A model generated the notes under the pieces. That model was not told the DNA's origin. It ran no database searches and was given only the letters and a program-made list of their open reading frames with translations. The position numbers and the translations under genes are program-made. Shown piece after piece: positions 2,395 through 38,847 of a stretch of DNA of 64,000 bases. Positions within the stretch are counted from its first letter, which is position 1, and the number at the start of each line of letters is the position of its first letter. Source of the DNA: Anaerotignum propionicum DSM 1682. GTDB lineage: Bacteria; Bacillota; Clostridia; Lachnospirales; Anaerotignaceae. The stretch is taken from the NCBI RefSeq assembly GCF_001561955.1, contig NZ_CP014223.1:372001-436000 (forward strand), in the 5' to 3' direction.

Positions 2395-3849
2395 ATGAAA
2401 AATGGGCTAAAGGTTTTGATCGTTGCCTCTGAGGCGGCACCCTTTATCAAAAGCGGTGGTTTGGGTGATGTTGTTGGGTCGCTGCCAAAAGCTTTAAAGG
2501 AACAGGGTGTGGATGTTCGTGTTGTGATACCACGCCATATGTCTGTGAAAAATAGTGAAATGCAAGATGTAAAATATCTTGGCGAGTTTGATGTGCATTT
2601 ATTTTGGCGTATTCAGCGGGCAAAGGTTTTGGTGAAACCCCAAGAAGTACCCATTTATTTTATAGAGAATGACTTTTATTTTGGCCGAGGCAATTTATAT
2701 GGCTATGGCGATGACAATGAACGGTTTGCCTTTTTTGGCAAGGCTGTTTTGGATATGATGGCGATGTTGGACTTTTACCCTGATGTTTTGCATTGTAATG
2801 ACTGGCAGACAGGTCCCATATGTCTATACTTAAAAGAGATATACAGCAAGATGATTTATTATTCTAGAATTAAGACTTTGTTTACCATTCATAATTTGCA
2901 ATATCAAGGAAATTTTGATAAGAGCACCATGGAAATTTTGGGTGCACCTTATTATTGTTATGAAAACGGTAACGTTGAGTTTTATAATAACGTAAGCTAC
3001 ATGAAAATGGGATTAACCTATGCTGACAGAATTTCTACGGTAAGTGAAACCTATGCCAAGGAAATTCAAACTTGGGAATTTGGCTATGGAATGGACGGAA
3101 TTTTGCGCAGTCGAAGGGATGTTCTTAGCGGCATTGTCAACGGTATTGATTATTTGAGCAACGATCCGGAAACGGACAGTCATATTACTTATCATTATAA
3201 TGTGGAACATTTAGAGGGAAAAGCACAAAATAAGCAGGTTTTACAGGAGCGCTTGGGACTGGAACGTCGGGATGTACCGATTATTTCTATGATTACCCGT
3301 TTGGCTGACCAAAAGGGCCTAGATATTTTATCTCATGTATTTCATGATATGATGCAAAGAGATGTACAATTTGTGTTGCTTGGAACGGGAGAAACCAGAT
3401 TTGAATATTTTTTCAGAGAAATGGCCCATCGCTATCCCGGCAGAGCCAGTCTGAACATTTTCTTTGATGAAACGTTAGCCCAGCAGATTTATGCAGGGGC
3501 GGATTTATTTTTAATGCCATCTAGATTTGAGCCCTGTGGGTTAGGGCAGATGTTTAGTCTACGTTATGGAACGGTACCTATTGCAAGAAAAACGGGAGGT
3601 TTGGCGGATACCATAATGCCATATGATGCAAAAACGAAAGAGGGAAATGGTTTCTTGTTTGAATCCTACGATGGAGGTGGTATCCTCTGGGCATTGGATC
3701 AAGCCTTACAGGTTTATCATAAGGGAAAAGAGGATTGGATGCATGTTGTGAAAAATGCCATGAACAGCAATTACTCTTGGGCGATTTCTGCCGAAAAATA
3801 TATTGAGCTTTATGAAATGTTGAAAGAAGAAGCTTTACCAACAGAATAA
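2395..3849 (+). CDS. glgA: Glycogen synthase (ADP-glucose type)
   Basis: Transfers glucose from ADP-glucose to the growing alpha-1,4-glucan chain; glycosyltransferase family 5, GT-B fold, cytoplasmic. Over 484 residues the N-terminal nucleotide-sugar loop KSGGL is at 19-23 (KTGGL in most members), followed by GDVVGSLPKAL. The C-terminal Rossmann domain has RFEPCGLGQMFSLRYGTVP, with E379 and P380, then KTGGLADT. The ATG at 2395 is preferred over an in-frame GTG at 2386, because GAGGTG at 2383-2388 is the ribosome site for the ATG. No other glycogen gene (glgB, glgC, glgD, glgP) lies beside it, so the rest of the pathway must be elsewhere. The following terminator makes it a single-gene unit. 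Confidence 0.95.
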   Translation: MKNGLKVLIVASEAAPFIKSGGLGDVVGSLPKALKEQGVDVRVVIPRHMSVKNSEMQDVKYLGEFDVHLFWRIQRAKVLVKPQEVPIYFIENDFYFGRGNLYGYGDDNERFAFFGKAVLDMMAMLDFYPDVLHCNDWQTGPICLYLKEIYSKMIYYSRIKTLFTIHNLQYQGNFDKSTMEILGAPYYCYENGNVEFYNNVSYMKMGLTYADRISTVSETYAKEIQTWEFGYGMDGILRSRRDVLSGIVNGIDYLSNDPETDSHITYHYNVEHLEGKAQNKQVLQERLGLERRDVPIISMITRLADQKGLDILSHVFHDMMQRDVQFVLLGTGETRFEYFFREMAHRYPGRASLNIFFDETLAQQIYAGADLFLMPSRFEPCGLGQMFSLRYGTVPIARKTGGLADTIMPYDAKTKEGNGFLFESYDGGGILWALDQALQVYHKGKEDWMHVVKNAMNSNYSWAISAEKYIELYEMLKEEALPTE

Positions 3850-3858
3850 TGCAGGAGC

Positions 3859-3927
3859 AAAGCCTCTGCAAGTGGGAAAATTCTAGGGAAGGATGCTGGA
3901 GATTTTCTGCTTGGGAGGCTTTTTTTA
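3859..3927 (+). terminator. Extended rho-independent terminator after glgA
   Basis: AAAGCCTC...CAAG pairs with CTTGGGAGGCTTT across a long internal arm that can also fold (GAAAAT/ATTTTC). A run of seven T follows. Confidence 0.65.
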
Positions 3928-4011
3928 TGTTCCTTTATTTTCAAAAGATACAAGCTGCTTGAAATTTTGGAGGAAAATGCGATAGGTGTCAATTGTTTTC
4001 TCCTGTGTAAA

Positions 4012-4040
4012 TTGCAAAAAAACAAGATTTATAGTATGAT
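4012..4040 (+). promoter_or_regulatory. Predicted promoter of the DUF5711-like/cvpA pair
   Basis: TTGCAA (4012-4017), a 17-nt spacer and TATGAT (4035-4040), about 40 nt before the start codon at 4083. Confidence 0.55.
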
Positions 4041-4082
4041 GAAATTTATGGTAGAAACATGCTTTGCAGGAAGGAGCAGTTT

Positions 4083-5462
4083 ATGGGAAAGAACCAGCAG
4101 AAACCGAAAGCGAAGGACAAGGGACTTGTAACGCTGTTAGTGATACTCACTTTAGTGGGCGCAGTGGCAGGGCTAATTTATTTAGATACGTTTTATGGAG
4201 CGGGGCGGCTTCAATCCTATTTTTCCAATGTATTTCAGTCGAAGGAAAGTGGGCAGGGCAACGAGGAGATGGTAGAGGCGAAGGGTAAGATACAACTTGA
4301 CGAGAGCAGTCGTTCATCCTTTGCTGTGTTTGGCAGTCGTTTTTTGTTGAGTACCAAAGATGGCGTAAAATATTTCAATGGAATCGGAGACCGCAAGTGG
4401 AATGATACCTTTAATATGACAATACCTCAGCTGATTTCTGAAGGAAGTTATGCGGCAGTGGGGGATATGAATGGGAAGACAGTTCGGGTTTATGGGGAAA
4501 ATGGACTGATGTATACAGTGCAGACAGAAGGAACCCTCATACAATTTGCATTAAACAAAAATGGGTATTTGTCTGTCATTTCTAAAGGGGACACGGCATA
4601 TTCTGTTCAGATATATAATGCAGGAGGCACTTTGTTGAAGGGACGTATCGAGGAAAGCGCCGGAATATTCCCTTTATGCTCCGATGTATCCGACGACAAT
4701 AAATCTTTTGCCATTAGCTATCTGGATACGTCCGATATTCAGCCTATAGGGAGGGTTTTGTTTTTTTACGTAAATCCCGATGATAGTGAAAACCTTACGG
4801 ACAGCATGTTTGCTGTAGTGGAAAAAAATGATGAAGTCATTCCCATAATCGGTTTTATGCAAGGGGGAGGACTCGCAGCTGTATCAGACCGTGGAATATA
4901 CGGGATTTCTTCCGTTGGACAGGAAGCTTGGAGCTATCCCCTTGAAAACAGATTGGCTCAGGTTTCTTTGTCAAATAAAAACTATGTTGTGCTTGCCATG
5001 GGTGATTCCATTGCCAACAAAGATGGGCGGGAAAAAGGCACAATCTGTTGGATTGATAGCAGTGGTAAGGAGAGCGCAAGCTACAAAAGCGGCGGAGGGA
5101 TTGACTATTTACAGGCTTCTGAACAAGGGGTTGTGATTGGTGTGGATAAAATATATTCAGGAATAAAAAATAGCGGAAGATTGGCATGGAGTTATCGAAC
5201 TGCCTCAGATGTGAGGGATATTCTGCCAATGGAGCAGTTAGAGCAGGTTATGCTGGTTACCAAAGGCGAGGCACTGATTACTCAGATGAAAGGAACCCAA
5301 ACCGCAAGACCTATTGTATCCCCCGAAGGGGAAACAGAGCCAGAGGTTGTTGGGGGAACCACAGATAAAAATCATGAAGCACCCGTTGAGAATGCGCCTT
5401 CCTCTGGAAATCAGCAAAAAGGCGATGACCAAAAACAGGTAAAGAAAGGCATGGCACAATAA
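4083..5462 (+). CDS. DUF5711-like membrane-anchored protein
   Basis: Function unknown. The 459-residue product has a short basic N-terminus rich in lysine, one hydrophobic segment at about residues 16-37, and a long extracytoplasmic region of repeated beta-strand-like blocks (for example SVQIYNAGGTLLKG and GTICWIDSSGKESA) that resemble blades of a beta-propeller. The tail from about residue 415 is low-complexity and rich in E, G, Q and K. This layout fits the DUF5711 family found in Lachnospiraceae, but I assign that from general resemblance, not from a search. AGGAAGGAG ends 6 nt before the ATG at 4083, so upstream in-frame codons are not needed. It sits 33 bases before a CvpA-family gene and probably shares its transcript. 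Confidence 0.6.
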   Translation: MGKNQQKPKAKDKGLVTLLVILTLVGAVAGLIYLDTFYGAGRLQSYFSNVFQSKESGQGNEEMVEAKGKIQLDESSRSSFAVFGSRFLLSTKDGVKYFNGIGDRKWNDTFNMTIPQLISEGSYAAVGDMNGKTVRVYGENGLMYTVQTEGTLIQFALNKNGYLSVISKGDTAYSVQIYNAGGTLLKGRIEESAGIFPLCSDVSDDNKSFAISYLDTSDIQPIGRVLFFYVNPDDSENLTDSMFAVVEKNDEVIPIIGFMQGGGLAAVSDRGIYGISSVGQEAWSYPLENRLAQVSLSNKNYVVLAMGDSIANKDGREKGTICWIDSSGKESASYKSGGGIDYLQASEQGVVIGVDKIYSGIKNSGRLAWSYRTASDVRDILPMEQLEQVMLVTKGEALITQMKGTQTARPIVSPEGETEPEVVGGTTDKNHEAPVENAPSSGNQQKGDDQKQVKKGMAQ

Positions 5463-5495
5463 AAATAAAGAATTTAGGAAATGAAGGTGATACAT

Positions 5496-6197
5496 ATGGA
5501 GCAAATGCCATTGTTATTGGATGCAGCGGTGATTATTTTGATTTTAGTTTTCGCAGGCATTGGCTACCACAAAGGCTTTGTAATGGAGGCACTGAGCTTT
5601 TTACCCATGCTAGCGGCAATGATTGCAGTAAAATTTCTGACTCCAGTGATGGGGGTACTTTTAAGGAAAACTCCCTTTTTTGGGACTTTAGCAAATTCTA
5701 TTGGGAAATCGATGCAACTGGATACGGTAATTGGCAATGCGGCAATGCATACACAAACAGAAATCATTCAGAATATGCACCTACCAGATTTTCTAAAGGA
5801 TGCATTGTTAGAAAATAATAATCCTGTTATCTATAATCTGTTGGATGTACAGGGATTGAAGGAGTATATAGCGGGGTTTCTGGCCAATGTATGCATTAAT
5901 ATTGTCAGCGTAATTATTGTTTTTGTTGTTGTTTTGTTCCTCGCACGTTTTTTGCTGAAGGCATTAAATTTGGTGAGCAAGCTACCGATTTTGAACTTTT
6001 TTAATCGTTCTTGCGGGTTGTTGGTAGGCGGAATTAAAGGACTCTTTTGGATTTGGCTTATTGCTATGGGGATAACTTTTTTACAATGTAATGATAAAAT
6101 GCTATCCTTTTTTCAGGTGTTGAATCAATCGGTGATTGCATTATTTCTATATGAAAATAATATTTTATTGTTCTTGATTTTGAAGATTTTTACTTGA
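5496..6197 (+). CDS. CvpA-family membrane protein
   Basis: Integral membrane protein of 233 residues with about four hydrophobic helices. The N-terminal LDAAVIILILVFAGIGYHKG is the typical CvpA opening: a helix followed by a short turn with a glycine and a basic residue. CvpA was named for colicin V production in Escherichia coli and is linked to envelope stress tolerance; the biochemical role is unclear. A large loop of about 75 residues between helices 2 and 3 is polar. The ATG at 5496 has AAGGTGAT at 5484-5491; an ATG at 5481 in the same frame lies too close to its own upstream purines. It is the last protein gene before the ribosomal RNA unit. Confidence 0.7.
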   Translation: MEQMPLLLDAAVIILILVFAGIGYHKGFVMEALSFLPMLAAMIAVKFLTPVMGVLLRKTPFFGTLANSIGKSMQLDTVIGNAAMHTQTEIIQNMHLPDFLKDALLENNNPVIYNLLDVQGLKEYIAGFLANVCINIVSVIIVFVVVLFLARFLLKALNLVSKLPILNFFNRSCGLLVGGIKGLFWIWLIAMGITFLQCNDKMLSFFQVLNQSVIALFLYENNILLFLILKIFT

Positions 6198-6252
6198 AAA
6201 ACTTGATGTTTTCTGGGTTTGAAATATTATGTAAAAAAAACGAAAAAAATCG

Positions 6253-6281
6253 TTGACAAAGAAGTTTATACATGATAGTAT
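6253..6281 (+). promoter_or_regulatory. Promoter of the 23S-5S-tRNA unit
   Basis: TTGACA (6253-6258), exactly 17 nt, then TAGTAT (6276-6281). An A-rich tract at 6231-6250 just upstream could act as an UP element, as is common for rRNA promoters. It lies between the cvpA stop and the 23S gene, so no 16S gene can belong to this transcript. Confidence 0.8.
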
Positions 6282-6320
6282 GTTTAGGCGGTCGCAAAAA
6301 GGCCGTAAATGAAATAAATG

Positions 6321-6342
6321 CACCTTGAAAACTGAATACAAG
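6321..6342 (+). other. 5' arm of the 23S precursor processing stem
   Basis: This 22-nt stretch, which includes CCTTGAAAACTGAATA, is complementary to 9525-9546 with a single mismatch, so the two arms enclose the whole 23S gene. Such a stem is the usual RNase III substrate in rRNA precursors. A second complementary pair, TCAATCGA at 6352-6359 and TCGATTGA at 9394-9401, lies inside it. Two perfect local hairpins follow at 6398-6416 (GTTGGCA/TGCCAAC) and 6422-6439 (CGTAGTA/TACTACG). Confidence 0.8.
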
Positions 6343-6491
6343 AAAAAAGAGTCAATCGAGAAAAAGTAAAATTTTTTTAGAAATAAAAGTAATAAACGTT
6401 GGCAGACGATGCCAACAAAACCGTAGTATCGCTACTACGAAACATTCCAAAGAACAAGCTATTGTTTTGAATTTATTCAAAGCAAAAAACT

Positions 6492-9387
<2,896 letters not shown>

Positions 9388-30714: not shown

Positions 30715-30867
30715 TTAATTGTAATTCTGAGGTTTTTATCATTATTTAACAAAAAAATGTTGAAATCATGACCTCAGAAGAAAAGTACGAAAAGAATTAT
30801 TTTTGCGATTTATAAAGGGCATTAAAGGAATACGGTTATTGTGTTGGTTTTAGATGGAATACATAAA

Positions 30868-30904
30868 AGATTTGCCGTAGAATTAAATTCTACGGCAAAT
30901 CTTA
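30868..30904 (-). terminator. Strong hairpin downstream of the CAP-domain gene
   Basis: AAGATTTGCCGTAGAA pairs with TTCTACGGCAAATCTT around five bases: 16 perfect pairs. On the minus strand it is followed by TTATG and lies 75 bases after the CAP gene stop. T runs are short in both directions, so it may be a transcript-end structure or a processing signal. Confidence 0.5.
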
Positions 30905-30978
30905 TGAAAACATATTAAATAGGGAATAGCATTTTTAGCATTCACCTGTTTATTTTTAGTTCATATCATTTTTTAATC

Positions 30979-31872
30979 TTAGTAAGTAAATAACTGTGTC
31001 CATGCATTGCCATCTACGCCAACGCCGATGTACTTAAAGTTGGGGTTCATAATATTTGCTCTATGTCCCTCGGAGTTCATCCAGTCATTCATAACCTGTT
31101 CAGGTGTTTTTTGTCCAAGAGCGATATTTTCGCCGGCACCTCTGTAAGAAGCATTTGCTTCGTCAAGGGCTGTAAAGCAGCTTCTGCCATCAGGTCTTGT
31201 ATGGGAAAAGCTTGTCTGAACTTCTTTTGCACGAACTTGTGCAGCTGCGGTAACTTTTGTATCAATTGTCAATGCACCTAAGCCTGCTTTTGCTCTTTCT
31301 GCATTTACAAGGTCAACTACTTTCTGTGCATTTACGGATACAGTTGCGGTTGTATCAGTAGAACTGTTGTTGCCGGAACCATTGTTGCTGGAACCGTTGT
31401 TGCTGGAACCGTTGTTGCCGGAACCGTTGTTGCCGGAACCATTGTTGCCGGAACCGTTGTTGCCGGAACCGTTGTTGGAGCCGGTTGTACAATTGGGTCC
31501 TGTACAAGTGTTGCCGGTGTTACATTTTGTGCCTGCTGTAGCCTTGGAACCGGGTGTGCACTTAATGTTTGGTGTGCAGTTAATTCCGTTTTTTGTGATA
31601 ACAATACCTTTTAAGTTTGCAGCACCCTTTACAGATGATCCGTTGTTGCAGTTTAACTGGCTTAAAATGGAATCCAAATTAACGGAGTTTAAGCAGTTAT
31701 TTTGTGTGCTGTTCAAGTTCTGAGCACCCTTTACTGTGCCGTTTGTCAATGCTTTTGGTGTTGGGCAATTGGAGCCGGAAGGTATATTGCATCCAAGAGG
31801 TGCAGCCATTGCCTGCACGGACATGGTAAGGACTGCTACAGAAACAGCGGCAGCTAATCTAAATTTTTTCAT
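30979..31872 (-). CDS. Secreted Cys-rich protein with C-terminal CAP (SCP/YkwD-like) domain
   Basis: Exported protein of 297 residues. Signal peptide at 1-24 (KKFRLAAAVSVAVLT, ending AMAA). The next ~105 residues carry nine cysteines, mostly single and set in short motifs such as SNC, QNNC, KCTPG and GPNC, with VKGA-type spacers. A flexible linker of seven NNGSG or NNGSS units runs from about 132 to 171. The CAP domain follows (about 181-297) with VDLVNAERAKAGLGAL, SHTRPDG, GENIALG and GHRANIMNP. CAP proteins of this type are common in spore-forming Firmicutes; the enzymatic role is unsettled. The ATG at 31872 follows AAAGGAGGAAC. It is a tandem paralog of the gene at 31902. Confidence 0.85.
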   Translation of the reverse strand: MKKFRLAAAVSVAVLTMSVQAMAAPLGCNIPSGSNCPTPKALTNGTVKGAQNLNSTQNNCLNSVNLDSILSQLNCNNGSSVKGAANLKGIVITKNGINCTPNIKCTPGSKATAGTKCNTGNTCTGPNCTTGSNNGSGNNGSGNNGSGNNGSGNNGSSNNGSSNNGSGNNSSTDTTATVSVNAQKVVDLVNAERAKAGLGALTIDTKVTAAAQVRAKEVQTSFSHTRPDGRSCFTALDEANASYRGAGENIALGQKTPEQVMNDWMNSEGHRANIMNPNFKYIGVGVDGNAWTQLFTY

Positions 31873-31901
31873 TTCAGTTCCTCCTTTATTCAATCTACGC
31901 T

Positions 31902-32429
31902 TTAATTACAGCTGGTATTGCAATTAGAACCGGTGCAGTTATAACCGTTAAAGCAGTTAGAAGCAGTTGTGGTGCTAGCACCCTTAACAGCTTTTGATGT
32001 TGTTGTGCAGTTGGAACCGGTTGCGCAGTTTGAGCCTGTGTTGCAGTTGGAGCCTGTTGTGCAATTGTTTGTGCTTGCACCTTTCACTCTTGTTGCAGCA
32101 TTTGTATAGCAGTTAGAACCCTTTGTTGAAGTGGTGCAGTTAGAGCCTTTTGCTGTTGTTGTGCCTTTTACATAGCTAGCACCCTTTACAGATGAACCGT
32201 TGTTTTTGCAGTTCAGCTGGCTTAAAACAGAATCGATGTTTGTTGATTTAAAACAATTATTCTGTGTGCTGTTTGAGGTCTGGATACCTTTTACCGCACT
32301 TGTGTACGCTTTGCTTGTTGGGCAACTGGAACCGGAAGATATATTACAGTTCAGAGGTGCGGCCATCGCCTGCACGGACATGGTAAGAACTGCAACGGAA
32401 ACAGCAGCGGCTAATCTAAATTTTTTCAT
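31902..32429 (-). CDS. Secreted Cys-rich repeat protein, paralog of the neighbour's N-terminal half
   Basis: Exported protein of 175 residues. Its first 26 residues, the whole signal peptide region, are identical to those of the CAP-domain gene next to it, and the similarity goes on through QLNC..NGSSVKGA. It has no CAP domain or NNGSG linker. Instead it has 14 cysteines in the mature part, many in GSNC or TGSNC units, and four or five VKG motifs. The even spacing of single cysteines suggests disulfide-linked or metal-binding repeats. Function unknown. Ribosome site AAGGAGGAAC; the CAP gene starts 29 bases after its stop, so both are likely on one transcript. Downstream sequence of each gene's start is alike, so this is a tandem duplication that has diverged. 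Confidence 0.8.
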   Translation of the reverse strand: MKKFRLAAAVSVAVLTMSVQAMAAPLNCNISSGSSCPTSKAYTSAVKGIQTSNSTQNNCFKSTNIDSVLSQLNCKNNGSSVKGASYVKGTTTAKGSNCTTSTKGSNCYTNAATRVKGASTNNCTTGSNCNTGSNCATGSNCTTTSKAVKGASTTTASNCFNGYNCTGSNCNTSCN

Positions 32430-32491
32430 TTAAAGTTCCTCCTTATTCATAGAAAAGTTTTTAAATAGTTGTTTCTCAATTGTTATGTAAT

Positions 32492-32510
32492 TGTTACAAA
32501 ACTGTTACAA
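32492..32510 (-). repeat. Two TGTTACAA repeats upstream of the Cys-rich pair
   Basis: TGTTACAA at 32492-32499 and again at 32503-32510, 11 bp apart (one helical turn), about 65-80 bases before the start at 32429. A regulator binding both on one DNA face is possible; I cannot define the promoter exactly. Confidence 0.4.
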
Positions 32511-32629
32511 GAACATAGTATCACAGCATTCAAAAGAATAAAAGCGTAAACAAATGGTAATTATCTATGAAAAAAGTGGTGAAAATCTTCGTTTTCCTTG
32601 TATTTTAAGGGGTTTGAGGGATAAAAAGG

Positions 32630-32680: not shown

Positions 32681-33364
32681 TTATTTTGTATCTAAAGAAA
32701 AGAATGGTTTTAAAGCAGATGCAACGGAGCTGATAGGCATTGTTTGCAGCCATATATGTCCGGGGCCCGTTATAACTGTATTAAAAAGGCCTTCACCGCC
32801 AAATAGCATATTTTTAAGGCCGGGAACCATTTGAATATCCATTTGGCAGGTGGTGCTCATCGCGGCAAGGTAGCCGCTGTCAATGATAATCTGTTGTCCT
32901 GCCTGAAGGTCGTATTCCACGGTGTGTCCATCAAATTCTGCAAAAACGGTACCTCTTCCAGAAACCTTTTGCAAGATAAAGCCTTCCCCGCCAAAAAGAC
33001 CAGAGCCAAATTTCTTATGAAAATGGACAGAAAGCTGTACACCTGCTTCTCCAGCAAGAAATGCGCTCTTTTGGAAAATATATTCTTGATTGGGTGAAAC
33101 CTCAAAGGCTTTGATGCTTCCAGGGAAGCTTGAAGCAAAGGCAATCACCCCAGGGCCTTGACTAGCGGTGTATTTATTTTGAAAAAAGGATTCCCCTGAA
33201 AACATTCGCCCAAAGGCCTTTCCAATTCCACCGTTTGTGCTTGTTTCCATTACCATATTGGGGGACATCCACGCCATAGAGCCCTTTTCGGTAATCATTG
33301 TTTCTTCTGCATCCAGCTTGCATATAACCACTGGCAAGGTTTCACCTGTTATCTCATATTTCAT
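32681..33364 (-). CDS. AIM24/TIGR00266-family protein
   Basis: Protein of 227 residues with the double-stranded beta-helix of the AIM24 family (bacterial relatives of a yeast mitochondrial protein). Typical segments: MAWMSPNMVMET after a threonine-rich strand, GEGFILQKVSGRGTVF, and GGEGLFNTVITGPGHIWLQT near the end. No signal peptide or helix, so it is cytoplasmic. The molecular function of bacterial members is not established. AAGGAGGATTT precedes the ATG at 33364. Confidence 0.85.
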   Translation of the reverse strand: MKYEITGETLPVVICKLDAEETMITEKGSMAWMSPNMVMETSTNGGIGKAFGRMFSGESFFQNKYTASQGPGVIAFASSFPGSIKAFEVSPNQEYIFQKSAFLAGEAGVQLSVHFHKKFGSGLFGGEGFILQKVSGRGTVFAEFDGHTVEYDLQAGQQIIIDSGYLAAMSTTCQMDIQMVPGLKNMLFGGEGLFNTVITGPGHIWLQTMPISSVASALKPFFSLDTK

Positions 33365-33639
33365 GTAAATCCTCCTTAAAATAATCAAGTATCATTATTA
33401 ATGAATACAACCACCAAAAACGTTGTTCTCATTTCTATAAGTCCCATTTGAAAAAGCCGGATGTCTGAATAGCCCAGTGGGCAAAAGGACAGCTTGGGAA
33501 TTGTCCGTGAACCTTTTGCTTCTCAAAAAAGCGTTTTTACAAATGGAGACTTTTGTTTCATTATATCATAAAAAAGGTGTAAGTTTATCCATAGATTAGA
33601 AAATACGAATATTTTTTTGTCAAAAATGAAAATTACTAC
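33365..33639. other. Structured intergenic stretch, no gene seen
   Basis: GCAAAAGG (33481-33488) faces CCTTTTGC and encloses GGACA/TGTCC, so a long hairpin can form around 33481-33520, followed by GCGTTTTT. It contains TTGTCCGTGAAC at 33501-33512, which recurs at 35046-35057. No start codon with ribosome site is present. Confidence 0.45.
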
Positions 33640-33669
33640 TTGACAGAGTATATGAAAATAATGTAAAAT
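33640..33669 (+). promoter_or_regulatory. Promoter of tRNA-Gly
   Basis: TTGACA (33640-33645), 18 nt, TAAAAT (33664-33669). The tRNA starts 18 bases later. Confidence 0.8.
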
Positions 33670-33686
33670 TCTTATTGCAACTGTGT

Positions 33687-33758
33687 GCGCGAGTGGCTCA
33701 GTGGTAGAGCATCGCCTTGCCAAGGCGAGGGTCGCGAGTTCGAATCTCGTCTCGCGCT
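33687..33758 (+). tRNA. tRNA-Gly (GCC)
   Basis: 72 nt. Acceptor GCGCGAG/CTCGCGC, discriminator T. Anticodon stem-loop CGCCTTGCCAAGGCG gives GCC. TTCGAAT T-loop present; no encoded CCA. Own promoter and terminator. Confidence 0.95.
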
Positions 33759-33763
33759 GTTTT

Positions 33764-33799
33764 AATCGGTTTTGATTATTCAAGACCGATTTTTTTTGT
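33764..33799 (+). terminator. Terminator after tRNA-Gly
   Basis: AATCGGTTTTG pairs with CAAGACCGATT (one wobble) around ATTATT, followed by T. Confidence 0.9.
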
Positions 33800-33925
33800 T
33801 CCGATTTTGGAAAAATAAGTCTGAATGCTTTGCTTAATTGAGCAGGAAGTGCTACCATATAAGGAGGCAAATATATCTGAAAAAAGATTCGAGAATCGTT
33901 CCATTTTGCAACACGGGAGGACAGT

Positions 33926-34822
33926 ATGAAGAGGGCAATTTCTATTTCTTGCAATACAGCGTGTACCTTTGTGAAGGGAAGATTCCCCTATCATTGGGAT
34001 TTGAATGTTTATAGAGGCTGTACTCATGACTGTAAATATTGCTATGCTCGTTATTCCCATAAGTATTTGCGGGAAAAGGGGGATTTTTCAGACTCCATTT
34101 TTGTGAAAACGAATATTGTGGAGGCATTGGAACGGCAATTGCGCAATCCCAAATGGGATAAGGCGGTCATTAATTTAGGCGGCGTTACAGACAATTATCA
34201 GGCTGCCGAAGCCATGGAGAAACATATGCCTGAAATCTTGCGTCTGATGATACAATATAATAATCCCATTACCATTTCTACAAAATCTGATTTAATATTG
34301 AGGGATTTTGACTTGATTGATGAATTATCAAGAAAAACCTACGTCAATATTGCCTCCACCATAACCACTGCAAATGAAACTTTGCAAAGGAAGCTGGAGC
34401 CCGGTGGGGTTAGCCCCCTGCGTCGGTTTTTGATGCTAAAGGAATTTGCAAAAACCAAGGCCTCTACGGCAGTGCATATGATGCCATTGCTACCGCTCCT
34501 TACGGATGGAGAGGAAAACTTGAATGCTGTTTTTTCTCAGGCTAGGGACGTCCATGCGGATTATCTACTGGCAGGGCTGCTGTATTTAAGAGGAGAAACA
34601 AAGCAGGTATTTTATCATTTTTTGAAAAAGGAATATCCGAATTTATTGGGCGAATATAGGATACTTTATCAGAATGGGGGTCTTAAGGATTACAGAGGAC
34701 CTTTGTATGAAAGATTAGGTAGAATCAGAGATAAATATCAGATTTCCTTTGATTATAAGAGTAGGCTTGAACGAGAGGTAAATGGAAAAAATAAGCCTAT
34801 TCAGATTAGCCTTTTCGACTAA
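33926..34822 (+). CDS. SPL-family radical SAM protein
   Basis: Radical S-adenosylmethionine enzyme of 298 residues related to spore photoproduct lyase and Rv2578c-type proteins (COG1533). The iron-sulfur cysteines are in GCTHDCKYCYARYSH, a CxxxCxxC motif near residues 31-38. ISTKSDLILRD and NIASTITTANE are family features. True SplB repairs spore photoproduct in UV-damaged spore DNA, but this protein is shorter and belongs to the broader group whose substrate is unknown. CGGGAGG lies 5-6 nt before the ATG. It is downstream of tRNA-Gly and separated from it by a terminator. Confidence 0.85.
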   Translation: MKRAISISCNTACTFVKGRFPYHWDLNVYRGCTHDCKYCYARYSHKYLREKGDFSDSIFVKTNIVEALERQLRNPKWDKAVINLGGVTDNYQAAEAMEKHMPEILRLMIQYNNPITISTKSDLILRDFDLIDELSRKTYVNIASTITTANETLQRKLEPGGVSPLRRFLMLKEFAKTKASTAVHMMPLLPLLTDGEENLNAVFSQARDVHADYLLAGLLYLRGETKQVFYHFLKKEYPNLLGEYRILYQNGGLKDYRGPLYERLGRIRDKYQISFDYKSRLEREVNGKNKPIQISLFD

Positions 34823-35451: not shown

Positions 35452-35556
35452 AACCTTTGATTGTTCAGTTTTAGGGACTGACATTTGGATGACGACAGTT
35501 TGATAAATATAAGATTTAGTTGTCATAGAAACAGATTTTTAAGGAGGAGCTTCTAC

Positions 35557-36858
35557 ATGAACGCAACATTGATGAACAAAGAAAAAACAGAAGTAAAATT
35601 TTCTTTTGAAGTAACCGCAGAAGTATTGGAAAAAGGTATGGCTTTTGCTTATAACAAGCATAAAAATCAAATTTCTCTCCCTGGTTTTAGAAAGGGTAAA
35701 GTACCTAGAAAGTTGATTGAGGCACAGTATGGCGAAGGCTTTTTCTATGAAGATGCAGTAAACCATATTTTCCCTGAAGAATACATGGCAGCTGTAAAAG
35801 AGCTGAATTTGGACGTAGTTTCCGCACCATCTTTGGATGTTGAATATATCGGTTCCGATAAGGGTGCAAAATTTATTGTTGATGTTACAATTAAACCTGA
35901 AATTAAGTTGGGTCAATATAAAGGCCTTTCCGCTGAGAAGGTTGAATCTGAAGTAACAGATGAAGAAGTTATGGCTGAATTGGAAAAAGCTCAGGCGAAA
36001 AATGCAAGAACCGTTGAAGTAACTGACAGAGCAGCAGAAATGGGCGATGTTGTAAAGATGAGCTATGAAGGCTCTGTTGACGGTGTGCCTTTTGATGGTG
36101 GCAAGGCAGATGAGCATGATTTGGAATTGGGCAGCGGTATGTTTATCCCCGGTTTTGAAGAAAAGCTTGTTGGTCACTCTTTGGGTGAAAAATTTGACAT
36201 TGACGTTAAATTCCCAGAAGAGTATCACTCTCAAGATTTAGCAGGCAAGGATGCAGTTTTTGCAATTGAAATCAAAGGGATTACCAAGAAAGAGCTGCCA
36301 GCATTGGATGATGCTTTTGCAGAGGATGTTTCCGAATTTTCCACTTTGGATGAATACAAAGCAAGCATTCTGGAAAAGCTTGCAAAGGAGAAAGAAGAAA
36401 AAGCAAGACAGGTTCAGGGCGACAAGCTTCTGGATGTTGCAGTTGCAAACTGCGAAATGGAAGTACCTCAGGTTATGTATGACAATAAAATCAACAGCAT
36501 GATGAAGGATTTCGAAGATAACATCGTGCGTCAAGGCTTGTCCTTAGACATTTACTGCCAGTATATGGGTACAACCCCTGAAGAAATGAAAGAGAACTTT
36601 AAGGACACCAGCGTGAAGAGTGTGGATGCAAGATTGATGCTGGAAGCCATTGCAAAGGAAGAAGGCTTAGCGGTTTCTAAAGAAGAGCTGGAAGCTGAAA
36701 TTTGCAAATATGGCGAAAGCTACGGCATTGATGGAAAAACAATGCTGGAGATGATTAGAGAAGAGGATAAAGAAGCGCTGGAACAGGATATGCTTGTAAG
36801 AGCAGCGATGAAGCTGATCGAAGACACAGCCGTTTTAACAGATCCTAAGGCTGAATAA
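35557..36858 (+). CDS. tig: Trigger factor
   Basis: Ribosome-bound chaperone with peptidyl-prolyl isomerase activity, 433 residues. N-terminal ribosome-binding domain (about 1-115) includes the signature GFRKGKVPRKLIE near residues 46-58. The FKBP-type PPIase domain spans about 155-245 (GDVVKMSYEGSVDGVPFDGG, then LGSGMFIPGFEEKL). The C-terminal helical substrate-binding domain follows. AAGGAGGAGC precedes the ATG at 35557. It lies upstream of clpP-clpX, the usual order in Firmicutes. Confidence 0.97.
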   Translation: MNATLMNKEKTEVKFSFEVTAEVLEKGMAFAYNKHKNQISLPGFRKGKVPRKLIEAQYGEGFFYEDAVNHIFPEEYMAAVKELNLDVVSAPSLDVEYIGSDKGAKFIVDVTIKPEIKLGQYKGLSAEKVESEVTDEEVMAELEKAQAKNARTVEVTDRAAEMGDVVKMSYEGSVDGVPFDGGKADEHDLELGSGMFIPGFEEKLVGHSLGEKFDIDVKFPEEYHSQDLAGKDAVFAIEIKGITKKELPALDDAFAEDVSEFSTLDEYKASILEKLAKEKEEKARQVQGDKLLDVAVANCEMEVPQVMYDNKINSMMKDFEDNIVRQGLSLDIYCQYMGTTPEEMKENFKDTSVKSVDARLMLEAIAKEEGLAVSKEELEAEICKYGESYGIDGKTMLEMIREEDKEALEQDMLVRAAMKLIEDTAVLTDPKAE

Positions 36859-36867
36859 GACCATCGA

Positions 36868-36900
36868 TTAGGCACAGTTTTACTGTGCCTAATTAAGCTT
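36868..36900 (+). terminator. Hairpin between tig and clpP
   Basis: TTAGGCACAG pairs perfectly with CTGTGCCTAA around TTTTA. The tail is only moderately T-rich, so read-through into clpP is possible. Confidence 0.6.
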
Positions 36901-36949
36901 TATAGGTATTTCAAAAGGTATAAATTAATTGGGAATGGAGGGAGTTCAT

Positions 36950-37549
36950 ATGAGTTTAGTGCCTATGGTAGTGGAACAGACAAACCGGGGAGAGCGTTCT
37001 TATGATATTTATTCCAGACTGTTAAAGGACAGAGTTATTTTTCTGGGGGAAGAGGTAAATGATGTTACATCAAGCCTTATTGTAGCACAGCTATTATTTT
37101 TGGCTGCGGAAGACCCAGATAAAGACATTAGCCTTTATATCAACAGCCCAGGCGGTTCAGTAACCGCGGGACTTGCGATTTACGATACCATGCAGTATAT
37201 CAAACCTGATGTGTCTACAATCTGCATTGGTATGGCAGCCAGTATGGGAGCTTTTCTTTTGTCAGGTGGTGCAAAGGGAAAAAGATACGCATTGCCGAAT
37301 GCAGAGGTTATGATTCATCAGCCTAGTGGTGGAGCAAGAGGACAGGCGACGGATATTTTTATCCATGCTGAAAATATATTGCGTACCAAAAAGAAATTAA
37401 ATGAAATTATGGCTAATAATACAGGCAGGACCATTGAGGAAATCGAAAGAGATACAGAGAGAGACCATTTTATGACGGCTGAGGAAGCAAAGGCCTATGG
37501 GCTGATTGATGATATAATTACAAAACCTCAGACAAAGGAGAGAGGCTAA
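36950..37549 (+). CDS. clpP: ATP-dependent Clp protease proteolytic subunit
   Basis: Serine protease of 199 residues forming a tetradecameric barrel. The catalytic triad is visible at the classical positions: S98 (GMAASMGA), H123 (VMIHQP) and D172 (TERDHF). The N-terminal [20 protein letters not shown] is standard. The ATG at 36950 has GGAGGGAG 5 nt upstream. clpX follows after two bases, so the protease and its unfoldase are made together. Confidence 0.98.
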
Positions 37550-37551
37550 AT

Positions 37552-38847
37552 ATGGCAGGAAAAACAGAAGATACGAACAAATTGCGTTGTTCCTTCTGCG
37601 GGAAAACTCAGGATCAAGTAAAGAAGCTGATTGCTGGGCCGAATGTATATATTTGTGATGAATGTATCGAGCTGTGCGCCGAGATTATTGATGAAGAATA
37701 TGATGTTTTAGCAAACAAAGAAGAGAAGTTTAATGTTCCAAAGCCAAAAGAAATCAAAGAGACGCTAGACCAATATGTAATTGGTCAGGATAAGGCAAAA
37801 CAAGCTTTGTCAGTAGCGGTTTATAACCACTATAAGCGCGTTTATATGGATGCCAAGGCGGAGGATGTTGAGCTTCAAAAAAGCAATATTCTTTTGGCAG
37901 GCCCCACAGGTACAGGAAAAACCTTGCTGGCACAGACTTTAGCCAGAGTATTAAACGTTCCTTTTGCCATTGCGGACGCCACCTCTTTAACCGAAGCGGG
38001 ATATGTAGGTGAGGATGTGGAGAACATCCTGCTGAAGCTCATTCAAGCGGCGGATTACGACATTGAACGCGCGGAGAGAGGCATTATTTATATTGATGAG
38101 ATTGATAAAATTACCAAGAAATCGGAAAATGTATCAATCACCAGGGATGTCAGTGGCGAAGGCGTGCAACAGGCATTGCTGAAAATTCTGGAAGGAACCA
38201 CAGCAAGTGTACCTCCTCAGGGCGGCAGAAAACATCCTCATCAGGAGTTTATCCAAATAGATACAACAAATATTTTATTTATTTGTGGCGGCGCATTCGG
38301 CGGCATTGAAAAAATCATTGAAAACCGTATGGGACATAAGGTTATTGGTTTTGGTGCTGAAGTGCATAGCAGATTAAACAAAACATCAGACGAAATTCTT
38401 CGTTCTTTGATGCCTCAAGATTTGTTAAAATACGGCCTTATTCCTGAATTTATTGGACGTTTGCCTGTAGTGGTAACTCTGGACAATTTGGATGAGGAAG
38501 CGTTTACCCATATTTTGACGGAGCCAAAGAATGCATTGACAAAGCAGTATGAATATCTATTTGCTTTAGACGATGTTATTTTGGAATTCGAACCTGATGC
38601 ATTGGCTGCAATTGCTAAAAAGGCAATGGAGCGGGCTACAGGTGCCAGAGGCTTGCGTGCAATTATGGAGGAATTCATTAATCCTATTATGTATGAAATC
38701 CCCGCAGAAACAACGTTGGAAAAATGCATTATTACCCAAGGTGTTGTGGAAGGGAATGAAGCCCCTAAATATATTTATAACGAAAACAGGCAGCCATTAC
38801 AGCGTATGCGCAGACGCAAGCATACAAGAAAAGTGAATGCCTCTTAA
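37552..38847 (+). CDS. clpX: ATP-dependent Clp protease ATP-binding subunit
   Basis: AAA+ unfoldase that feeds substrates to ClpP, 431 residues. N-terminal zinc-binding domain with C13, C16, C35 and C38. Walker A GPTGTGKT at 117-124, Walker [10 protein letters not shown], the GYVGEDVE pore loop, and the IGF loop (KVIGFG) that docks into ClpP. The C-terminal small domain ends in a basic tail. GAGAGAGGC precedes the ATG. Terminated at 38872. Confidence 0.98.

Follow-up and report, generated by a model that had tools for sequence, protein, structure and literature searches.

The window analyzed here, a stretch of 64,000 nucleotides from Anaerotignum propionicum DSM 1682, contains on its minus strand a pair of neighboring genes for secreted proteins and, upstream of them, a promoter region with repeated hexamers, as follows.

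30979-31872, minus strand: gene for a 297-aa secreted protein (P0001, below the CAP protein) with a Cys-rich N-terminal half, an NNGSG linker, and a C-terminal CAP domain (ORF and Pfam).
31801-31872, minus strand: signal peptide in the CAP protein, judged by eye to span residues 1-24 (putative cleavage).
31902-32429, minus strand: first gene of the pair, for a 175-aa secreted Cys-rich protein (P0002), a tandem paralog without a CAP domain (ORF).
32358-32429, minus strand: signal peptide in the 175-aa protein, judged by eye to span residues 1-24 (putative cleavage after AMA and before AP).
32471-32476, minus strand: AGAAAC, perhaps a degenerate fourth hexamer of the same register (by eye).
32482-32509, minus strand: WalR-type operator TGTAAC-N5-TGTAAC-N5-CATAAC (pattern match of 18/18; also upstream in relatives).
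32515-32520, minus strand: putative -10 element TACTAT with an upstream TG (from the TANNNT register across loci).
32544-32560, minus strand: conserved upstream block TTACCATTTGTTTACGC (from TNCCA conservation).

An earlier note on this DNA had described two neighboring exported ORFs with a shared signal region, and their coordinates, lengths, and identity were confirmed: the N-terminal 26 residues of the two proteins are identical, and the genes agree at 70 of the 78 nucleotides that encode these residues. The CAP domain of the 297-aa protein was also upheld, as were the Cys-rich repeats of the 175-aa protein, which has 14 Cys residues, 5 VKG motifs, and 6 GSNC units, compared with 10, 2, and 1, respectively, in the CAP protein. 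The two genes are separated by 29 bp, in which a ribosome-binding site alone is seen by eye, and, judged from this arrangement, they look like one transcription unit with the 175-aa gene first. No further match to the 175-aa protein was found in the 3.12-Mb genome besides these two places (E ≤ 1). That the Cys-rich sequences belong to no described family was borne out by a profile search, in which neither the 175-aa protein nor the N-half of the CAP protein matched a Pfam or NCBIfam family; against the PDB, the 175-aa protein returned a single chance-level match (E 0.53).

Several features adjoin the pair. An inverted repeat recognized by eye at 30864-30908, between a 190-aa gene and the CAP gene, is perhaps a shared terminator, and the same stretch gives a weak Rfam match to a miRNA that is far under the gathering score. 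A gene for an AIM24-family protein (window positions 32681-33388; Pfam E 9e-74) adjoins the operon, and a relative is found beside the CAP gene in two related genomes (G001 and G004). Because of its overlap with a tRNA-Gly gene (33687-33758), the ORF at 33523-33954 is probably spurious.

Bacterial CAP proteins are, to our knowledge, common and mostly without an assigned function. The CAP domain of P0001 (PF00188, residues 186-288, E 6e-20) scores 72.7 bits against a gathering score of 21.1, which places the protein in the CAP superfamily. In an alignment of six CAP fusions, H224, E238, E248, and H270 are invariant; these putative cavity residues we take to be the His and Glu residues of the CAP domain cavity. 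Among solved chains, the one nearest to the CAP part belongs to an extracellular SCP-domain protein (4ifa; E 6e-12). The best NCBIfam match of the CAP part is spore_YkwD (TIGR02909), whose score of 111.4 bits is below the cut-off of 171 for membership. The protein thus resembles bacterial YkwD-type members of the CAP/SCP/PR-1 family in its C-terminal domain, which is above the Pfam cut-off, but differs from them in a Cys-rich N-half without any match and in a score under the spore_YkwD cut-off. Animal CRISP proteins also combine a CAP domain with a Cys-rich region, although there the Cys-rich region comes after the CAP domain and in P0001 it precedes it. Another NCBIfam match of the CAP part, to the Rhodobacterales divisome lipoprotein DalA, was rejected (41 bits against a cut-off of 200); a term search of the DalA paper (PMC10470522) finds neither CAP nor SCP.

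Structure prediction, which had been proposed as a check on both halves, was informative for one of them. The AlphaFold model of the CAP protein (6 sequences) has pLDDT values of 70-90 over most of the CAP region, excepting residues 222-245, all but one of which fall below 50, but values below 50 throughout residues 1-176. The conserved NCLNS...SILSQLNC stretch overlaps two short helices of low confidence.

To place the pair among its relatives, we compared eight Anaerotignum genomes, seven of which contain the N-half of the CAP protein, versus only one, that of A. propionicum itself, with the 175-aa protein. Because of this difference, we read the pair as the outcome of a local duplication, in which the conserved protein is the CAP fusion. 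The fusion is thus widespread, and the 175-aa protein is a local form, a species-level tandem duplicate with no CAP domain and with additional Cys repeats; this corrects the earlier emphasis on the pair. The suspicion that a pair absent from all relatives would be a local oddity accordingly holds for the pair but not for the CAP fusion. In the six relatives examined, the fusion is intact in five, and the sixth (G005) has both halves, its assembly showing a stretch of N within the linker. No second protein of the 175-aa type was found in these six relatives with a CAP fusion, so tethering of the CAP protein through the 175-aa protein, as the earlier note had supposed, is not a general mechanism. 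Outside the genus, the N-half gave weak matches only in a 60-genome sample (best E, 8e-4).

The gene neighborhood is broadly common to the six relatives: relatives of the window's FeoB gene lie within about 8 kb of the CAP gene in five of them (G001 being the exception), and relatives of the genes at 35485-38847 are near the CAP gene in five, the contig of G007 ending first. Both the Cys repeats (GSNC in A. propionicum, TGSDC in several relatives, and ADKSC in one) and the linkers (NNGSG, TTNET, and NSGS) vary by species. One relative, G001, lacks both the Cys of the NC motif and the CAP-domain Cys of RSCF, a single event that is no proof of a disulfide. It has to be considered that the Cys-rich proteins may be extracellular buffers of metals or thiols, with the CAP domain incidental. 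The 14 Cys of the 175-aa protein, which has only 13 charged residues past residue 24, would suit such a role, as would the TGSDC repeats of relatives; however, the Cys spacings of the 175-aa protein are all at least 4, leaving no CXC or CXXC motif, and the Cys repeats change between species while the CAP domain and the operator are kept, making a buffering role improbable.

Across the family, CAP-domain matches with E ≤ 1e-8 were obtained in 45 of 58 genomes, some of them, among the weaker, perhaps to other CAP proteins, and a named genome collection yielded 72 CAP loci, including ones from Blautia, Enterocloster, other Lachnospiraceae, Paenibacillus, and Fictibacillus. Most of the CAP proteins that were read share a common plan, namely, a signal peptide, an N-terminal part with some Cys, a low-complexity linker, and a C-terminal CAP domain. 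Within a hand-chosen set of 40 loci, the total Cys count is odd in 23 proteins, and a regular expression for the common N-domain core matches 10, so we claim no single N-domain family beyond the genus.

The operator lies upstream of the 175-aa gene, first of the pair, and is a 28-bp array whose hexamers fit the consensus TGTWAH-N5-TGTWAH defined for WalR of Bacillus subtilis and given in a paper on WalRK of Clostridioides difficile (PMC9210968); a WalR box is therefore present near the promoter. The triple pattern YRTAAY-N5-YRTAAY-N5-YRTAAY has one exact match in the A. propionicum genome and none for the reversed control, a uniqueness that is partly by construction because the pattern was drawn from this site. 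A looser pair pattern is weakly enriched in the same genome (7 matches versus 3 in the control), and a further search for regulon members in the eight Anaerotignum genomes gave 17 matches, 9 of them at the CAP promoter (in five genomes) and 8 elsewhere, with 8 in the controls. At another locus of this study (L148, positions 2977-8642) are two tandem genes for large secreted proteins, of which the first, the one searched, ends in a Cu_amine_oxidN1 domain, and TGTAAY-N5-TGTAAY occurs about 280-290 bp upstream of them on the opposite strand (L148, 2671-2698 and 5505-5521); the two proteins may belong to a surface layer and share the regulator, or the sites may be there by chance.

The operator keeps a fixed position relative to a -10-like element, from which it is separated by a 5-bp gap. 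Of 40 loci considered, 32 have the site, and TANNNT starts exactly 11 bp upstream of the first hexamer in 29 of these 32 (12 loci for the next-best register), a count that measures register rather than frequency because 13 of the 40 loci were picked from a scan of a named collection (see below) mainly for looking positive. Farther upstream, TNCCA is present at -49/-50 from the first hexamer in 26 of 32 CAP promoters.

This promoter bears on the proposal of a surface or spore layer, in which the exported surface role fits the signal peptides and the spore half fares poorly. According to that proposal, the proteins would form a disulfide-linked spore or exosporium layer, and the CAP protein would be a YkwD-type spore protein. 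The top NCBIfam match of the CAP part is indeed spore_YkwD, but at 111 bits versus a cut-off of 171. Clostridia do have Cys-rich exosporium proteins such as CdeC and CsxA, which are likewise Cys-rich and exported, but the promoter of the pair, a -10-like element with a WalR-type operator, lacks a sporulation-specific look. A SpoIVA match was obtained in 53 of 58 family genomes (49 above the cut-off), including that of A. propionicum; co-occurrence with sporulation genes had been suggested as a check in the earlier note, and with SpoIVA it is uninformative since the gene is nearly universal in the family and does not discriminate. A spore layer is thus quite unlikely.

The operator recurs at CAP loci across the family. 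In a set of 27 family loci, drawn from the best 30 of 55 matches with start codons chosen by eye (L045, L065, and L066 were left out, and L037, L039, and L042 gave way to different loci from their genomes), comparison with dinucleotide shuffles gives p ≤ 0.002 for 22, and the box is missing at five (L047, L048, L049, L050, and L064). A scan of 66 loci from the named collection, with starts set by a heuristic, left 62 for evaluation (two had too little upstream sequence and two had no ORF), and 14 of the 62 reach at least 17/18. Eleven of these carry the names "Lachnospiraceae bacterium" (six of them), Blautia, Acetatifactor, Enterocloster, Metalachnospira, and Anaerotignum, names that we take to denote Lachnospiraceae or near relatives; the other three (L079, L096, and L097) are clostridia or unnamed. 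Three of the 14 repeat genomes of the 27-locus test. Among the 62 loci, no Paenibacillus, Fictibacillus, or Bacillus locus attains at least 17/18, nor do some Lachnospiraceae loci (L094 and L108) or those of Butyricicoccus and Agathobaculum (L078, L080, L098, and L100).

Real DNA served as a stronger control. Over both strands of all 72 CAP loci (434,201 bases), 29 sites score at least 17/18, although note that these include overlapping registers of one array, and they fall in 21 loci, 6 of which are the same Anaerotignum gene. All 29 lie upstream of the CAP match and on its strand, with none elsewhere in the 72 loci.

The genome of A. propionicum also encodes the regulator that such an operator would call for. 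At its wal locus (L147), walR, walK, a gene for a secreted 153-aa protein, a gene for a 468-aa protein, and yycI follow in a row. The top NCBIfam matches of WalR and WalK are resp_reg_YycF (339 bits; cut-off, 340) and HK_WalK (496 bits; cut-off, 725), so that WalR is present by top matches that are both under strict cut-offs. YycI is above its Pfam cut-off, the 468-aa protein is YycH by position and without a profile match, and the 153-aa protein after walK matches nothing in Pfam or NCBIfam.

In this genome, the interval separating walK from the gene that follows it contains a related array, TGTTAT-N5-TGTAAG-N5-TGTAAC-N5-TGTAAT, followed by TATAAT (about positions 3525-3580 of L147; in the genome, around 2787041-2787057 of contig C1). 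Its last two hexamers are kept in all eight Anaerotignum genomes, among them G006, which has the wal array and lacks a match to the N-half. With a criterion of a triple of at least 16/18 plus a strict pair within 260-300 bases after walK, the array was recovered in 41 of 47 family genomes (8/8 in the genus, then 21/23, then 12/16, the shuffles in the latter two sets being mononucleotide); walK itself was found in 55 of 57 genomes, 47 of which were examined. The array is missing at L185, L188, L210, L216, and L218, and L208 was not counted as a 42nd case, since it reaches 18/18 only by running into its own -10 element. Together, the array and the -10 element suggest that the walRK operon has an internal promoter just after walK.

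The two kinds of array differ in placement, the one after walK preceding its -10 element (by eye) and the one at CAP genes coming after the -10 element there. This difference bears on the idea that the conserved repeats are a 5' UTR element working at the RNA level, with no protein bound to the DNA. If the -10 element is right, the repeats would indeed fall roughly within the transcript's initial 30 bases; however, the array after walK sits upstream of its -10 element, the 11-bp period is about one turn of the DNA helix, and Rfam (E ≤ 0.1) finds nothing on the repeats, its one chance-level miRNA match being elsewhere. An RNA element is accordingly very improbable.

Overall, the CAP box is strongly, though not strictly, associated with the wal array. 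Both are absent from G031 and G071 (CAP loci L047 and L049; wal loci L185 and L188); G067 has the wal array (L181) and lacks the CAP box (L048), and the CAP box occurs in G022 and G080 (L046 and L055), where the 300 bases scanned past walK show no array (L210 and L216). Such separate occurrences, within the stretches scanned, would be expected if the operator belonged to another regulator of the OmpR family, most likely PhoP, and the CAP protein were an exoprotein of phosphate starvation or another stress, and PhoP boxes also consist of hexamers with a similar 11-bp period. Against PhoP, a similar hexamer array directly follows walK in 41 of 47 family genomes, and we consider regulation by PhoP or another such regulator rather unlikely.

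The observed ORFs, their architecture and orthology, the conservation of the operator, and the related array after walK would be best explained, with a probability of roughly 0.55, by a secreted CAP wall protein that belongs to the WalR regulon of Lachnospirales, including Anaerotignum, with the pair as a small operon; G022 and G080 lower the probability slightly. The CAP fusion of A. propionicum would then be one local version of an exoprotein that many Lachnospirales have. At genes that it represses, WalR typically binds past the -10 element. We infer the binding of WalR at the operator, and the direction of its action, from the sequence: an array past the -10 element would cover the start site, and repression is therefore expected at the CAP promoter; activation is expected after walK, where the array comes before the -10 element. 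With WalR~P on the three, or perhaps four, hexamers, the start site would be masked and transcription blocked.

The WalR~P of B. subtilis is an activator of yocH and a repressor of iseA, whose product is a secreted inhibitor of wall D,L-endopeptidases (PMC7299342); repression of iseA, together with that of pdaC, is also given in PMC4478028. By analogy to iseA, WalR~P probably represses the CAP protein, which is secreted like IseA, and the CAP operon would therefore be expressed when WalR activity falls. The similarity does not extend to the proteins, as the IseA profile is not matched and a Pfam scan at E ≤ 1 returns CAP alone for P0001 and nothing for P0002. The C. difficile Wal regulon provides a second comparison, being a WalRK system with TGTWAH-N5-TGTWAH sites in a clostridium, but "CAP domain" and "SCP" are absent from the main text of PMC9210968.

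Within the WalR reading, the CAP domain would be the effector at the wall. We also infer, from the Cys content, that the Cys-rich half probably engages in disulfides, either inside one molecule or linking several, and that these would stabilize the CAP protein or hold it at the wall or cell surface; the odd Cys totals of the proteins (23 of 40) leave room for links between molecules. The 175-aa protein would perhaps be extra disulfide-forming material. A more specific and frankly speculative version would have Lachnospirales employ the exoprotein as a secreted CAP protein dedicated to feedback on wall hydrolysis, shut off by WalR~P at an operator that overlies the transcription start and performing the job of IseA by an unrelated fold, with a Cys-rich N-domain that is self-cross-linked at the cell surface and, in A. 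propionicum, the CAP-less paralog as its cross-linking partner.

The CAP domain, WalR, and the WalR box are each already known. In the literature searched, of which subscription journals were mostly outside, we found neither a report of a Lachnospirales Cys-rich CAP exoprotein under a WalR-type operator nor a link in print between CAP proteins and WalR. A CAP exoprotein with a WalR-type operator in many Lachnospirales would tie the CAP family to cell wall homeostasis.
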